Made by a program: the position numbers and the translations under genes. Positions 964 through 6,060 of a stretch of 64,000 bases of DNA are shown here, piece by piece (within the stretch, counting starts at the first letter, position 1; the number at the start of each line of letters is the position of its first letter). The notes beneath the pieces were generated by a model. It saw only the letters and a program-made list of their open reading frames with translations. It ran no database searches and was not told the origin of the DNA. The stretch is from Planctopirus ephydatiae (GTDB lineage: Bacteria; Planctomycetota; Planctomycetia; Planctomycetales; Planctomycetaceae). The stretch covers positions 3,621,501 to 3,685,500 of the forward strand of contig NZ_CP036299.1 in assembly GCF_007752345.1 (NCBI RefSeq). Reading direction: 5' to 3'.

Positions 964-3963
964 CTACTGCAACTGCCGGATAATCTCTTCAATACTTGCG
1001 AGTTGACTCTTCTGATTCACCAACGTCTGGCGAACTTCGGCCACCACTTCCGGTGGGGCCTTGTCGACAAAGCTGGCATTCCCCAGTTTCTTTTCGGTCG
1101 CAGCGATGAAGCCGCGCAGCTTCTCAGCTTCCTTGGTCTGCTTGGCCAGTTCTGCCGCCTTATCAATGAGGCCTTCCAGCGGCACAAAGCCTTCAGCTCC
1201 TACGAGTGCAAAACTCGCAGAAGCGGGAGGACGTTGCACCTCGGGGCCAGTCGCCGCAATCTCCGCTTTGGCCAGACTCTGGATCTGGACACGTAAAGCT
1301 TCAAAATCAGCGGCAGCTTCAACACTGCACTTCAGATGAACCGCAATCGACTGCCCGGGGCTGATCCCATAGGTCGCGCGGATGTTCCGAATCGCACCGA
1401 TCGTCTCCTGCAACCTGGTAAATCGCTGCTCCAGGGCAGGGGAGATGTCGGCTTCGTTCACCTTCGGCCAGGACGCAACAATGCACGCGGCTTCCGCCGG
1501 CTGGGGTTCAGGCAAGCCGCGTGAAGGTGCGATCTCAGCCAGGCGGTGCCACAACTCTTCCGTAATGAACGGCGTGAACGGGTGCAACAACCTCAGGATC
1601 TGATCGAGAACATGCACCAGCACCCGCTGAGCGACGGGCTTGGTCGTCTCGTCACGCAACCGCGACTTGATCAATTCGAGGTACCAGTCGCAGAACTCGT
1701 TCCAGACGAAATCCCGCAGGGCGCGCGTCGCCGCGTCGAACTTGTAGACCCCCAGCAGGGAGGTCACTTCGTTCGTCACCGTCGCCAGGCGGCTGACGAT
1801 CCACTGGTCCTCAATCGCCAGTTCGCTCTTGGCCACTGCAGCAGGTGTGTAGCCCTCCAGATTCAGCATGGCGAAACGAGCGGCGTTCCAGAGCTTGTTG
1901 CAGAAATTGCGGCCAAACTCGAAGCGTTCGATCACAATCCCCGCCACCAACTCGCCTTCGTCGGGCGCATACCAGGGGGTCGCATACTGCGATTCCTTCT
2001 TGCATTTCGCGCACTTGATCTTCGGCTTGCCCGGCTGGAATTTGAGGTGCTTCTGCTCCTGGGGAATCAGGTTCTGGCAATGGGGGCATTCGTAGCTGAC
2101 CGGCAAGCGCACGTCCTGCGTTTCACCCGCAAACGAGGCGATCGTGAAGCGAGTTCCATCGCAACCGTAGCGGTCGACGAGTTCGAGAGGATCAACACCG
2201 TTCCCCTTGGTTTTGGACATCCCTTGCCCAAATCCGTCCTGAATTTTGGGATGGATATGCACATGTTTGAAGGGGATATCATTCAGGTTGTAGAGACCTG
2301 TTAGCACCATTCGGGCGACCCAGAGCGTGATGATATCCCGTGAGGTGATCAGCACACTGCCGGGATAGAAGTAGGGGAGAACGGTGTTCTTCCCGTTGCC
2401 AGTCGGATCAGGCTGATTGTTGAGTGGCGGATTCGCCGTTTCATTCGGCCAACCTAGCGTCGCATGCGGCCAGAGGGCGGAACTGAACCAGGTGTCGAGG
2501 ACGTCGGGATCCTGTGCAAATCCGTCTGCTTCGAGTTGCTTCTGGGTCTGTTCCCCATCGGCTGCCGAGGCATCCACGCAAATCAGCACGCTCGCGGGAT
2601 CGCTGGCTGAAAGAACACCAGCCGCCGCCGAACTGTCAGTGTGAGTCGCGAGATACGACTCGGCTTCCGACGCGCTCGCGAACTGCTTGCTCCACACGGG
2701 AATCCGGTGCCCCCACCACAACTGACGGCTGATGCACCAGTCGCGCTTCTCCCCCAGCCAGTCGAGATAGCTCGATTGGTACCGCTCGGGAAAGAACTTC
2801 ACGCGGCCATCCGTCACGGCGTCGATCGCCTTCTGGGCCAGATCGTCCATCTTCACGAACCACTGATCGGACATCAGCGGCTCAACCGGCGTCTTCGACC
2901 GATCACTGAACTTCATGGGAATCTTGCGGTCTTCGACCTTCTCGAAGTAGCCCAGTGATTCCATCTTGGCAACCACGGCCTTGCGGGCTTCGAGACGATC
3001 CAGCCCCGCGAATTCGCCACCTTCTTCATTGATAGTGCCATCGGCCCGCATGATGTTAATCATCGGGAGCTTGTTGCGCAGGCCACAGGCGTAGTCGTTG
3101 GGATCATGCGCAGGAGTCACCTTCACGCAGCCCGTCCCCAGTTCCTTATCGGCCAAAAGTCCATCGGCAATGATTGGCACGAGCCTGCCAACGAGTGGCA
3201 GCCGGACGTTCTTTCCCACCAGCGCCGTATAGCGTTCGTCGGTAGGATGGACACACAGCGCGGTATCGCCCAACATCGTTTCGGGTCGTGTCGTCGAGAA
3301 AGAAATCCGCTGGCCGGTTGGTTCCCCCTGATCGTCCACCACGGGGTAGTTGAACGTCCAGAACTGCCCGTCGATGTCTTCCGTATAGACTTCGTCGTCA
3401 GCCACGGCGGTCTGCAAAAAGGCATCCCAGTTGACGAGCCGCTGGCCACGATAAATGAGGCCATCGCGGAACATCTTGAAGAATGTTCGCCGCACGGCCT
3501 GGGAGCAGACCTCGTCGAGCGTGAAGCGTGTCCGCCGCCAGTCGCAACTCGCCCCCAGTCGCTTGAGCTGGCCGAGAATGCGGGCCTCGTAGTGATCCTT
3601 CCATTTCCAGATGCGCTGAATCAACGCCTCACGGCCCACGTCGTGCCGCGTCAGCCCTTCCTCCTCGAGCATCCGCTTTTCAACCATCGACTGAGTGGCG
3701 ATCCCCGCATGATCGGTTCCCGGCATCCAGAGTGCCGAATACCCCTGCATGCGCCTCCAGCGGGTGATGAGATCCTGCAGCGTTCCGTTGAGGGCATGCC
3801 CCATGTGGAGCGCCCCCGTCACGTTCGGCAGGGGGATCATGATCACATGCGGAGGTTTGGTCTCACTGGGATCGGCATTGTAGTAGCCATGGGATTCCCA
3901 GAAAGAAATCCAATGTGCCTCAATCGATTGCGGCTCGTAAGACTTGGGAATTTCAGTCGTCAT
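964..3963 (-). CDS. valS: valine--tRNA ligase
   Basis: Class I aminoacyl-tRNA synthetase that charges tRNA-Val in the cytoplasm. The HIGH signature is HMGH at residues 53-56 within PLPNVTGALHMGH. The CP1 editing domain carries TTRPETMLGD near residue 223. The KMSKS loop reads GMSKTKGN with Met582. The anticodon-binding domain holds GRNFCNKLWNAARF, and the C-terminus is the charged ValRS coiled-coil arm (about residues 930-999). At 999 residues it is longer than usual. The extra length includes a four-cysteine zinc-ribbon-like insertion (Cys626, Cys629, Cys651, Cys654) between the KMSKS loop and the anticodon-binding domain. It follows cimA on the same strand after about 230 bases containing two hairpins. 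Identification is secure. Confidence 0.97.
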   Translation of the reverse strand: MTTEIPKSYEPQSIEAHWISFWESHGYYNADPSETKPPHVIMIPLPNVTGALHMGHALNGTLQDLITRWRRMQGYSALWMPGTDHAGIATQSMVEKRMLEEEGLTRHDVGREALIQRIWKWKDHYEARILGQLKRLGASCDWRRTRFTLDEVCSQAVRRTFFKMFRDGLIYRGQRLVNWDAFLQTAVADDEVYTEDIDGQFWTFNYPVVDDQGEPTGQRISFSTTRPETMLGDTALCVHPTDERYTALVGKNVRLPLVGRLVPIIADGLLADKELGTGCVKVTPAHDPNDYACGLRNKLPMINIMRADGTINEEGGEFAGLDRLEARKAVVAKMESLGYFEKVEDRKIPMKFSDRSKTPVEPLMSDQWFVKMDDLAQKAIDAVTDGRVKFFPERYQSSYLDWLGEKRDWCISRQLWWGHRIPVWSKQFASASEAESYLATHTDSSAAAGVLSASDPASVLICVDASAADGEQTQKQLEADGFAQDPDVLDTWFSSALWPHATLGWPNETANPPLNNQPDPTGNGKNTVLPYFYPGSVLITSRDIITLWVARMVLTGLYNLNDIPFKHVHIHPKIQDGFGQGMSKTKGNGVDPLELVDRYGCDGTRFTIASFAGETQDVRLPVSYECPHCQNLIPQEQKHLKFQPGKPKIKCAKCKKESQYATPWYAPDEGELVAGIVIERFEFGRNFCNKLWNAARFAMLNLEGYTPAAVAKSELAIEDQWIVSRLATVTNEVTSLLGVYKFDAATRALRDFVWNEFCDWYLELIKSRLRDETTKPVAQRVLVHVLDQILRLLHPFTPFITEELWHRLAEIAPSRGLPEPQPAEAACIVASWPKVNEADISPALEQRFTRLQETIGAIRNIRATYGISPGQSIAVHLKCSVEAAADFEALRVQIQSLAKAEIAATGPEVQRPPASASFALVGAEGFVPLEGLIDKAAELAKQTKEAEKLRGFIAATEKKLGNASFVDKAPPEVVAEVRQTLVNQKSQLASIEEIIRQLQ

Positions 3964-4120
3964 CAGGGAAACTCTCGTGAAGCCGCAGCACTCGGATGCG
4001 GCGATTTATTCAAGGGTACTGAATCAATGAGAAATCGGCGGCTTCGGCTGAAATTCTGATTTCTTCCAGAGCAGCATAGCCGAAGGAGTTTGAGGAGAGA
4101 TTGCTGACATATTGCCTCTT

Positions 4121-4162
4121 GTGACTTTGTCACCCAGGTAGACCGAAGACGGTCAACCTGGG
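4121..4162 (-). repeat. paired hairpins between cimA and valS
   Basis: Two adjacent perfect stems lie in the cimA-valS gap. The larger one (4133-4162) nests CCCAGGT/ACCTGGG outside ACCG/CGGT with an AAGA loop on the plus strand. The smaller one (4121-4133) is GTGAC-TTT-GTCAC. There is no T-run after either in the minus direction, so this is not a standard terminator. It could be a processing or mRNA-stability element or a REP-like intergenic palindrome. A weakly similar stretch occurs near 59725-59765. Confidence 0.5.
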
Positions 4163-4192
4163 CCACCCAAGCGTCGTTCAAAAATGAGACCA

Positions 4193-5761
4193 CTAATCCG
4201 GCAGTCCTTCATCTTTGAAAAGCTTGTATTCGACACTGTCGACCAGTGCCAGCCAACTGGCTTCAATCACATTCTCACTCACACCGACAGTGCTCCAGGT
4301 GTCGTGTTCATCCCGGCTTTCGATCACCACGCGCACCCTTGCGGCCGTTCCTTCCGCCGAGTTGATCACGCGAACTTTGTAGTCGACCAGATGCATCTGT
4401 TCGAGTGATGGGTAAAAACGCAAGAGTGCTCGACGGACAGCTGTATCGAGAGCATTGATCGGGCCATCACCTTCTGCAACGACATGCTCGACGTCGTCGC
4501 CAACTCTCAGCTTGACTGTCGCTTCAGTCACTGGAACCTGAGATTCTTCGGTCACGACCCCCACGCGATAATGCAGCCGCTGAAACTTGGGCGTGTACAG
4601 GCCCGCTTCTTTACGGACCAGCAGATCAAACGAACCTTCGGCAGCTTCGAACTGATAGCCGATGTTCTCCAGATCCTGCACGCGTTCGAGGATGTTCCGC
4701 ATGAGCTGGTCATCCTCGGCAATGCGGTACTTCGTCGTCTTCGCGATGATGTTGCTGCGGCCCGAAAGCTCGCTGACCAAAACCTTGCGTTCGTTGCCCA
4801 CAGTCTCCGGTGGAATATGCTCATAGCTGCGTGCCAGGCGGTTGACCGCGTGGACGTGCATTCCCCCCTTATGGGCAAAAGCACTGCTGCCCACAAAGGG
4901 CTGGCCCGGACGAAGTTGCAAATTAGCGATTTCGTAAACGTACCGGGAGAGCTCTGTTAAATGGACAATTCCATTCGGCTTGAGCACCTCGTGATGTTTT
5001 TTGAGTGCGAGGTTGGCCGCCACGCTCACAAGATCGACATTGCCGCACCGCTCGCCAATGCCGTTGATCGTCCCTTGAACCTGAATCGCGCCGCAATCGA
5101 CAGCAATCAACGAATTGGCAACGGCCAGTTCACAATCATTGTGGCAGTGGATGCCCAGGGGAGTGGAAAGTTCTTTGCGCACGGCATTCACAGCCGCTGC
5201 GACCTCTTCGGGCATCGTCCCCCCGTTGGTGTCACACAGGCAGAGCAGAGCCGCCCCGGAATCGGCCGCGGCCCTCAATGTCTTCAAAGCAAACTCAGGA
5301 TTGGCCTTGAATCCATCGAAGAAATGCTCTGCATCATAAATGACGTGCCGGCCTTCGGCTGCTAGAAATGCCACCGAGTCGCGGATCATCGCCAGGTTCT
5401 CGGCTTCATCGACACGCAGAACTTCAAAGACATGCAGATCCCACGTCTTTCCCACAACCGTACAGCAAGGCGTTCTGGCGTCTCGCAGTGCCAGCATGCC
5501 TGTATCCTGATCGGCAGTCACGCCCTTGCGACGGGTCATGCCGAAGGCGGAAATTTTGGCATGCTTGAGCGGCAGATCCCGCACACGTTGAAAGTATTCC
5601 GCATCTTTGGGATTCGAAAGAGGATAACCTCCTTCAATAATGTCGAGGCCAATTTCATCCAGCTTCTGAGTAATCAGGAGTTTATCCTGCAGCGAGAAGT
5701 TAACGCCTTCACCCTGGCTACCGTCGCGCAAGGTGGTGTCGTAAAGCTGGATGCGAGCCAT
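4193..5761 (-). CDS. cimA: (R)-citramalate synthase
   Basis: Condenses acetyl-CoA and pyruvate to (R)-citramalate, the threonine-independent entry to isoleucine synthesis. The 522 residues begin with the DRE-TIM metallolyase motif LYDTTLRDGSQGEG. The metal-binding GIHCHNDCELAVANS motif lies near residue 200. The C-terminal third (about 380-520) is a LeuA-type allosteric dimerisation domain, the site of feedback control in this family. The N-terminal pattern (EGVNFSLQDKLLITQKLDEIG, GGYPLSNPKD) matches the CimA branch better than 2-isopropylmalate synthases, but the two families are close and the assignment rests on that resemblance. An attenuator-like leader lies upstream. valS follows on the same strand. 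Confidence 0.88.
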   Translation of the reverse strand: MARIQLYDTTLRDGSQGEGVNFSLQDKLLITQKLDEIGLDIIEGGYPLSNPKDAEYFQRVRDLPLKHAKISAFGMTRRKGVTADQDTGMLALRDARTPCCTVVGKTWDLHVFEVLRVDEAENLAMIRDSVAFLAAEGRHVIYDAEHFFDGFKANPEFALKTLRAAADSGAALLCLCDTNGGTMPEEVAAAVNAVRKELSTPLGIHCHNDCELAVANSLIAVDCGAIQVQGTINGIGERCGNVDLVSVAANLALKKHHEVLKPNGIVHLTELSRYVYEIANLQLRPGQPFVGSSAFAHKGGMHVHAVNRLARSYEHIPPETVGNERKVLVSELSGRSNIIAKTTKYRIAEDDQLMRNILERVQDLENIGYQFEAAEGSFDLLVRKEAGLYTPKFQRLHYRVGVVTEESQVPVTEATVKLRVGDDVEHVVAEGDGPINALDTAVRRALLRFYPSLEQMHLVDYKVRVINSAEGTAARVRVVIESRDEHDTWSTVGVSENVIEASWLALVDSVEYKLFKDEGLPD

Positions 5762-5880: not shown

Positions 5881-5909
5881 AAAAAATAACCCCCGGCATA
5901 ACCGGGGGC
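5881..5909 (-). terminator. intrinsic terminator in the cimA leader
   Basis: On the minus strand GCCCCCGG, a TTATG loop and CCGGGGG form a 7-bp all-GC stem (arms at 5902-5908 and 5890-5896) followed by TTATTTTTTG. It lies about 120 bases upstream of the cimA start, so it would end transcription before the gene unless disrupted. Its first arm is also complementary to CCGGGGGC at 5947-5954. Confidence 0.8.
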
Positions 5910-5943
5910 ACAAACAGGCAGAATCATTACGGCCTGGGTTGCA

Positions 5944-6003
5944 TTAGCCCCCGGAAGTCGTAATTCCAATAATCGATACTGTGTATACAAATGTGAGTGA
6001 CAT
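5944..6003 (-). CDS. putative cimA leader peptide (19 residues)
   Basis: The reading frame ATG (6003) to TAA (5944) encodes MSLTFVYTVSIIGITTSGG. Three Ile codons (ATT at 5973-5971, 5970-5968 and 5964-5962) sit among four Thr and two Val codons. This composition resembles leader peptides of isoleucine/valine/threonine operons. A GGAAAAAGC purine stretch precedes the ATG as a possible ribosome site. The stop codon abuts the first attenuator segment. No longer protein frame on this strand fits the region better. Translation is inferred, not shown. Confidence 0.6.
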   Translation of the reverse strand: MSLTFVYTVSIIGITTSGG

Positions 6004-6031
6004 GCTTTTTCCATTTTCTTGACGTCATTGA

Positions 6032-6060
6032 AGCCTACCCAGTGAAGGCAGACACGTCAA
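6032..6060 (-). promoter_or_regulatory. candidate sigma-70-type promoter for the cimA leader
   Basis: On the minus strand TTGACG (6060-6055) and TAGGCT (6037-6032) are separated by exactly 17 bases. The -35 element matches 5 of 6 consensus positions and the -10 element only 3 of 6. The expected start point near 6026 would leave about 22 bases before the leader-peptide ATG and give a terminated leader RNA of roughly 145 bases, a normal size for attenuated leaders. Confidence 0.45.

Follow-up and report, generated by a model that had tools for sequence, protein, structure and literature searches.

An isoleucine-rich leader upstream of cimA in Planctomycetaceae, very probably a ribosome-mediated transcription attenuator, and its leucine-rich counterpart upstream of leuA

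The trp, his, thr, leu and ilv operons of enterobacteria are controlled by ribosome-mediated attenuators. The leader analyzed here, upstream of cimA, the gene for citramalate synthase, which catalyzes the first step on the way to isoleucine, likewise combines a putative promoter, a leader frame with control codons that match the product, mutually exclusive antiterminator and terminator helices and a U-tract. It is unlike the enterobacterial attenuators in its target, cimA, and, in the window, in having three segments and no predicted protector or pause hairpin. Many Planctomycetaceae leaders also differ from the enterobacterial ones in that the stop codon lies inside or beside the antiterminator strand.

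Leaders of related function have been described in other phyla (statements on the papers cited by accession cover the available excerpts of each). In Actinobacteria, a candidate Ile/Val/Leu-rich leader with a terminator precedes ilvB and a Leu-rich leader precedes leuA; the leuA element is described as a pseudoknot with a stem that reaches the leuA Shine-Dalgarno box, and mutations in the Streptomyces ilvB and leuA leaders did not fit classical attenuation (PMC1262725). These leaders share a leader peptide rich in branched-chain amino acids (BCAA) with the planctomycete devices and are set apart from them by the leuA pseudoknot. Rli60, which precedes ilvD of Listeria monocytogenes, has a leader with BCAA codons and an alternative terminator and antiterminator (PMC5864092), and a Leu-rich attenuator precedes ilvD of Staphylococcus aureus (PMC5794164); both stand before BCAA operons that are also under CodY (PMC5864092, PMC5794164). 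When BCAA were low, hindered translation of the Rli60 leader lowered ilvD transcription, which is termed super-attenuation (PMC5864092); in contrast, untranslated RNA of the window leader is predicted to antiterminate. By 2010, leader peptide systems were known from Proteobacteria and Actinobacteria, to which Firmicutes were then added, and the available main text of that paper lacks the word planctomycetes (PMC2965389). A genome-wide essential-gene study exists for Planctopirus limnophila, and a term search of its available text for BCAA genes found nothing (PMC10632474). The original prediction knew of no account of cimA attenuation in planctomycetes, and in the literature that we searched (subscription papers being mostly outside reach, and some searches covering the best 20 matches) we likewise found no description of attenuation of cimA or in planctomycetes. 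Within that literature, an attenuator here would be the first on record for citramalate synthase as well as for planctomycetes.

The window, by which we mean the whole stretch of 64,000 nucleotides that was analyzed (G000:C1:3621501-3685500), carries the leader on its minus strand between the divergent genes purA and cimA. Its parts and the genes downstream are as follows.

6055..6060, minus strand: -35-like TTGACG (sequence reading; family promoter motif)
6032..6037, minus strand: -10-like TAGGCT (sequence reading; TAATCT in the sister species)
5944..6003, minus strand: leader peptide frame MSLTFVYTVSIIGITTSGG, 19 codons plus TAA (Ile-rich frames in relatives)
5962..5973, minus strand: control codons ATT ATT GGA ATT, which are Ile11, Ile12, Gly13 and Ile14 (sequence reading)
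5947..5954, minus strand: segment 1, CCGGGGGC, 5' strand of the antiterminator, abutting the stop codon (sequence; 1:2 covariation in relatives)
5911..5937, minus strand: linker with a predicted nested hairpin CAGGC/GCCTG inside the antiterminator (fold)
5902..5909, minus strand: segment 2, GCCCCCGG, common to antiterminator and terminator (sequence, terminator scan)
5889..5897, minus strand: segment 3, GCCGGGGGT, 3' arm of the terminator (sequence, terminator scan)
5881..5886, minus strand: T-tract of the intrinsic terminator (sequence, terminator scan)
4193..5761, minus strand: cimA, citramalate synthase, the regulated gene (TIGR00977, 670.6 bits versus a cutoff of 450)
964..3963, minus strand: valS, the next gene, same strand (NF004349)

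When the window was read again, the promoter-like pair, the 19-codon frame, the stop codon, the segments and the terminator were all found where the original prediction had placed them, and the TIGR00977 score confirms its naming of the downstream gene as cimA. The leader frame starts with ATG at 6003 and ends with TAA at 5946-5944, and it has 3 Ile within 4 codons. The original prediction put Ile11 and Ile12 (5973-5968) 14 to 19 bases before segment 1, which is exact; that reckoning left out Ile14 (5964-5962), the end of which is 7 nt before segment 1. The three segments have exact 8-base complementarity, and the third carries CCGGGGG followed by the T-tract. The terminator stem (5909-5889) was also matched by the terminator scan, and the terminator ends approximately 120 bases upstream of the cimA start. 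The -35-like and -10-like hexamers are separated by a 17-nt spacer. This TTGACG/TAGGCT pair was not among the matches of a promoter scan of the window, and we accept it because it is conserved in relatives: TTGA-N18-20-YANNNT precedes 53 of 58 Planctomycetaceae leaders versus 4.7% of mononucleotide shuffles. The sister species (L002, genome G033) keeps all the parts: its three segments are identical, its frame differs by a single synonymous substitution, and its -10-like hexamer, TAATCT, is nearer the consensus.

The original prediction would fail if relatives lacked the frame or the paired segments. In fact, most of the Planctomycetaceae cimA loci examined carry an Ile-rich frame and three segments of the same plan. 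Among 189 cimA loci, with gene starts placed by tblastn, we kept 62 from Planctomycetaceae and 122 others, leaving out L168, which has a late start, and 4 duplicates; L031, L032 and L034 were counted as Planctomycetaceae by title and similarity. In the 420 nt upstream of each gene, we looked for a terminator, a short frame with at least 3 Ile among its final 25 codons, and an antiterminator lying between the end of that frame and the terminator. This full anatomy is present in 52 of the 62 Planctomycetaceae loci, 4 more have it without the Ile codons, and 6 have none; these counts are not independent because the 62 loci include close relatives. The same test finds the anatomy in 0/62 reverse strands and in 1/1240 dinucleotide shuffles. 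With 480 nt upstream, 53 of the 62 loci pass and 9 fail. L016 and L177 also pass once more upstream sequence is included, which gives 55/62 by the strict test, and L017 and L180 have an Ile leader with antiterminator scores of 13 and 12.5 against a threshold of 14, which gives 57/62 with near misses. The remaining 5 of the 62 loci (L015, L025, L142, L173 and L182) have no leader before cimA. In L015 and L182, TTTGAC and a -10-like TACCAT or TATCAT run almost straight into a terminator without a leader peptide, an arrangement that, judged by its letters, would be a reduced or decayed form. In L150, the leader is MTNTLIIIGRIII, and it is the start-codon region ATGACCAATACAC, not the end of the leader, that is complementary to GTGTATTGGCCAT at the terminator; this is possibly a different kind of switch.

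An Ile-rich short frame cannot serve as the sole criterion because such frames are too common when the terminator test is omitted: they precede 41/62 Planctomycetaceae loci (reverse strand, 13), 26/65 loci of other Planctomycetota (reverse strand, 10) and 29/55 loci of other phyla (reverse strand, 9). Many of the Ile-rich frames from other phyla have ISTSEIK-like ends, which we take to be the end of aspartate kinase. With the full test, 15 of the 122 loci outside Planctomycetaceae pass and 9 more do so without Ile, compared with 0/122 reverse strands and 1/2400 shuffles. The passing loci are 13 from Planctomycetota, with titles that include Pirellulaceae (L041), Phycisphaerales (L049), Phycisphaeraceae (L054) and Planctomycetales (L059), plus one titled Abditibacteriaceae (L061) and one Desulfobacteria (L074). 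No Ile leader was found at cimA of Isosphaeraceae (L042) or Singulisphaera GP187 (L038). L083, on a contig titled Deltaproteobacteria, falls short of the required Ile count, yet Ile codons lie farther upstream in it and its helices are strong. L066, on a Desulfobacteraceae contig, and L083 have Ile runs in their leaders, plus an additional hairpin that lies within or behind the leader, an arrangement nearer the classical four-segment plan.

We analyzed codon content in leaders that were picked blind to Ile, which were obtained for 58 of the 62 Planctomycetaceae loci. Over the final 20 codons, the share of Ile is 21.0% in the leader frame versus 3.3% and 1.4% in the two alternative frames; the cimA gene itself has 5.1%. 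The leader averages include 7 of the 58 leaders for which the blind rule gave 0 or 1 Ile, and in the window the rule chose another, longer overlapping frame that starts at 6028. The codon ATT accounts for 166 of 242 leader Ile codons versus 353 of 1110 in cimA genes. One alternative is a broader sensor that responds to Val and Thr as well as to Ile. In its favor, Val6, Val9 and four Thr codons occur in the window leader, and valS lies downstream. Across the 58 leaders, however, Val (8.1%) and Thr (5.8%) are near their cimA background (9.5% and 4.8%), Leu (4.2%) and Val are not raised, and Ile alone is raised among the branched-chain and Thr residues, so that we regard a sensor of several amino acids as improbable.

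The same plan, with a Leu-rich leader, is found upstream of leuA in 19 of 20 Planctomycetaceae loci examined (of 28 fetched). Leu makes up 34.3% of the last 20 codons of these leaders versus 6.8% in the leuA gene, and the rare codon CTA accounts for 27 of 124 Leu codons in the leaders versus 3 of 631 in the genes. In 13 of the 19, segment 1 shares bases with the stop codon. The leuA leader of the window's own genome is MHPENFNLLRLSSLLLRRTGENL (L217, minus strand of the locus). Of 27 additional leuA loci from the window's class, 14 have a Leu-rich candidate (5/5 in Planctomycetaceae and 9/22 outside), 2 have a candidate that is not Leu-rich, and 11 have none. The leuA attenuator is thus like the cimA device of the same planctomycetes in plan and in the positions of the terminator and T-tract, and it has Leu codons, including the rare CTA, where the cimA leader has Ile. 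The cimA/leuA pair is a natural codon-swap experiment and an internal control. The claim that the codon content fits the gene is borne out both by the rise of Ile in the leader frame alone and by this twin with Leu codons. No attenuator was found upstream of ilvB (0/23), ilvC (0/14, of 16 fetched), trpE (0/14) or a trpE-like paralogue (0/5; 19 of 20 trpE and paralogue loci examined) in Planctomycetaceae; in the ilvB, ilvC and trpE tests the match start was taken as base 1501, so loci near contig ends may be weak negatives, and L204 and L269, which are cut by contig ends, have no usable upstream sequence.

The two helices were examined in an alignment of 54 Planctomycetaceae leaders chosen for at least 3 Ile, a 1:2 score of at least 13 and spacing. 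Its consensus is GCGNC-CTGAGG, a linker, AACCCTCAGGTCG, a loop, CCTGAGGG and the T-tract, in which GCGACCTGAGG would complement CCTCAGGTCGC. The antiterminator (1:2) is paired in 82.6% of cells (79.3% in shuffles) and the terminator (2:3) in 95.3%, percentages that are inflated because the rows were selected for 1:2 pairing. In 1:2, 24 cells are changed on both sides (9.0 in shuffles) and covariation is 0.204 versus at most 0.070 when the strands are slid; in 2:3, 32 cells are changed on both sides (5.6 in shuffles) and covariation is 0.290 versus at most 0.084 when slid. Both helices peak at slide 0. Two of five covariation measures for 1:2 are not clearly above shuffles: pairs with two-sided change (5 versus 3.9, with 145 of 500 shuffles) and further pair types (16 versus 14.0, with 68 of 500 shuffles). 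The compensatory changes that the original prediction asked for in relatives are seen, more clearly for the terminator, and the covariation of both helices in the 54 leaders, together with the folds of the window, upholds its claim that 1:2 and 2:3 are mutually exclusive. Cognate 1:2 pairings score 19.0 versus 17.5 for non-cognate ones in Planctomycetaceae (P = 0.003), where 1481 of 3306 non-cognate pairings are as good. For 13 outside loci, hand-picked from 21 Ile-blind picks, the scores are 24.4 versus 16.7 (P = 2e-6), and 22 of 156 non-cognate pairings are as good.

The spacing of codons and segments also fits attenuation. Ile codons are commonest 7 to 12 codons before the stop, the last one ends a median of 13 nt before segment 1, and in 26 of 58 cimA leaders segment 1 and the stop codon overlap. 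If the ribosome edge is taken as 12 nt from the first base of the A-site codon, then a stall at some Ile frees segment 1 in 55/55 Ile-containing leaders and a stall at the last Ile does so in 47/55; when the ribosome stands at the stop, the beginning of segment 1 is covered in 47/55. This is the geometry that the original prediction had described for the window, in which a stalled ribosome leaves segment 1 free and one at the stop hides it. In folding predictions with the ribosome on Ile, P(1:2) is >0.5 in 45/55 leaders (0.997 in the window), and with the ribosome at the stop, P(2:3) is >0.5 in 55/55 (0.97 in the window). The predicted folds of the window are -27.2 kcal/mol for the antiterminator region and -17.6 kcal/mol for the terminator. 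For untranslated RNA before segment 3 is made, P(1:2) has a mean of 0.55 over the 55 leaders and is 0.99 in the window. No protector or pause hairpin hiding segment 1 is predicted in the window, where the probability that segment 1 pairs with upstream RNA is 0.005; the Planctomycetaceae mean is 0.27, and the value is >0.5 in 15/55 leaders.

On the parts and their recurrence, the enrichment of Ile in one frame, the covarying helices, the spacing and the Leu device at leuA, all of which are there to be read in the sequences, we conclude that the leader very probably controls cimA by ribosome-mediated transcription attenuation, with charged tRNA-Ile as the signal. Recurrence, covariation and the leuA device thus speak for the mechanism originally proposed. 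The start site, translation of the leader, stalling, read-through and the response to isoleucine would follow from that reading. Transcription would start near 6025. When Ile is plentiful, the ribosome would proceed to the stop codon bordering segment 1 and so cover this segment; segment 2 would then pair with segment 3, and RNA polymerase would terminate at the T-tract. Under a shortage of charged tRNA-Ile, the ribosome would pause at ATT ATT, 13 to 16 nt before segment 1, and the free segment 1 would pair with segment 2 once it is made, so that the terminator could not form and cimA would be transcribed. Since no hairpin is predicted over segment 1, an untranslated leader is expected to give read-through rather than super-termination. 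The features of an attenuator that are readable from sequence (a run of control codons, exclusive helices, geometry, and a promoter-like motif with a pathway gene) are all present. A protector or pause hairpin marks the trp type and is absent from some attenuators. Because that hairpin is missing here, we do not file the leader as trp-type; the assignment to the wider attenuator kind stands, and the lean three-segment plan is a possible variant of ribosome-mediated attenuation.

A family model built from the cimA leaders has its best match upstream of cimA in 31 of 41 genomes (E of 2.6e-8 or better), and 28 of those 31 genomes gave model rows (G003, G014 and G022 did not). The model search of the window's genome (G000) and of G033 did not return the cimA leader and gave only a weak terminator match elsewhere. 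Scored directly and unfiltered, the window leader obtains 30.1 bits with a mis-set stem, despite being a model row; it has CCGGGGGC/GCCCCCGG in place of the consensus CTGAGG/CCTCAG. Read from these letters, the window leader is a divergent member, with a plan that is common to Planctomycetaceae and segment letters that are not. Because of the direct scoring, we lowered our confidence in the attenuator reading, very slightly, and it remains high. The model also matches just upstream of leuA in 10 genomes (E of 1e-4 to 0.09). We read 13 further weak matches as candidate attenuators and rejected them, since they look like 3' terminators of coding genes; approximately nine more weak matches are mostly partial.

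These results bear on a second alternative, that the element is a plain promoter-proximal intrinsic terminator next to an Ile frame that arose by chance, with no control by isoleucine. Such a terminator is consistent with L015 and L182, which have promoter-like sites and a terminator without a leader, with the departure of the window segments from the Planctomycetaceae consensus, and with the resemblance of the 13 weak model matches to 3' terminators. It does not account for the frame-specific Ile enrichment, the covarying antiterminator, the Leu-rich leuA twin, the rarity of the anatomy in shuffles (1/1240) or the exact 8-base complementarity of the three window segments, and we consider it quite unlikely. 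Two other readings are less likely still. Direct binding of isoleucine or tRNA-Ile by a riboswitch or T-box, elements that commonly control amino acid genes in other phyla, is very improbable given that Rfam yields no match at gathering level and just three weak sRNA matches over the terminator (E of 0.03 to 0.19), and that the codons change from Ile to Leu with the gene. TnaC-like arrest, in which the nascent peptide sequence and free isoleucine would stall the ribosome, would look alike in its anatomy but is equally improbable, since the peptides have, by eye, no shared sequence outside the Ile run and the leuA leaders use Leu codons, rare CTA included.

The attenuator reading now extends beyond the original prediction in the family-wide plan, the other families reached, the leuA twin and the frequent position of the stop inside segment 1, and in the finding that the window segments are unlike the Planctomycetaceae consensus. 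For Planctomycetota as a whole, we tentatively propose, at somewhat less than an even chance, a paired system on two paralogous synthases, with isoleucine sensed at cimA and leucine at leuA, three lean segments, a stop often in the antiterminator strand, no need for a protector and an untranslated leader that would turn the gene on. The mechanism is classical; what would be new is the phylum, the target, the codon swap between cimA and leuA, and the bearing on coupling. The planctomycete cell plan has been claimed to separate transcription from translation. If the paired system is real, its spread would imply transcription-translation coupling at the cimA and leuA loci in Planctomycetota, and these leaders would offer a genetic read-out of the coupling of ribosome and RNA polymerase in planctomycetes.

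In the phylum sample, cimA was detected in 58 of 159 genomes (E of 1e-100). ilvA (TIGR01127) is above the cutoff in 1 of 61 Planctomycetaceae genomes, and matches below the cutoff, a few of them full length, occur in 35 more, the window's genome included. In the window (964-5761), valS directly follows cimA on the same strand. It may be on the cimA transcript, and the Ile sensor could set valS expression too. The cimA-valS pair recurs in many relatives and at some loci of other phyla.
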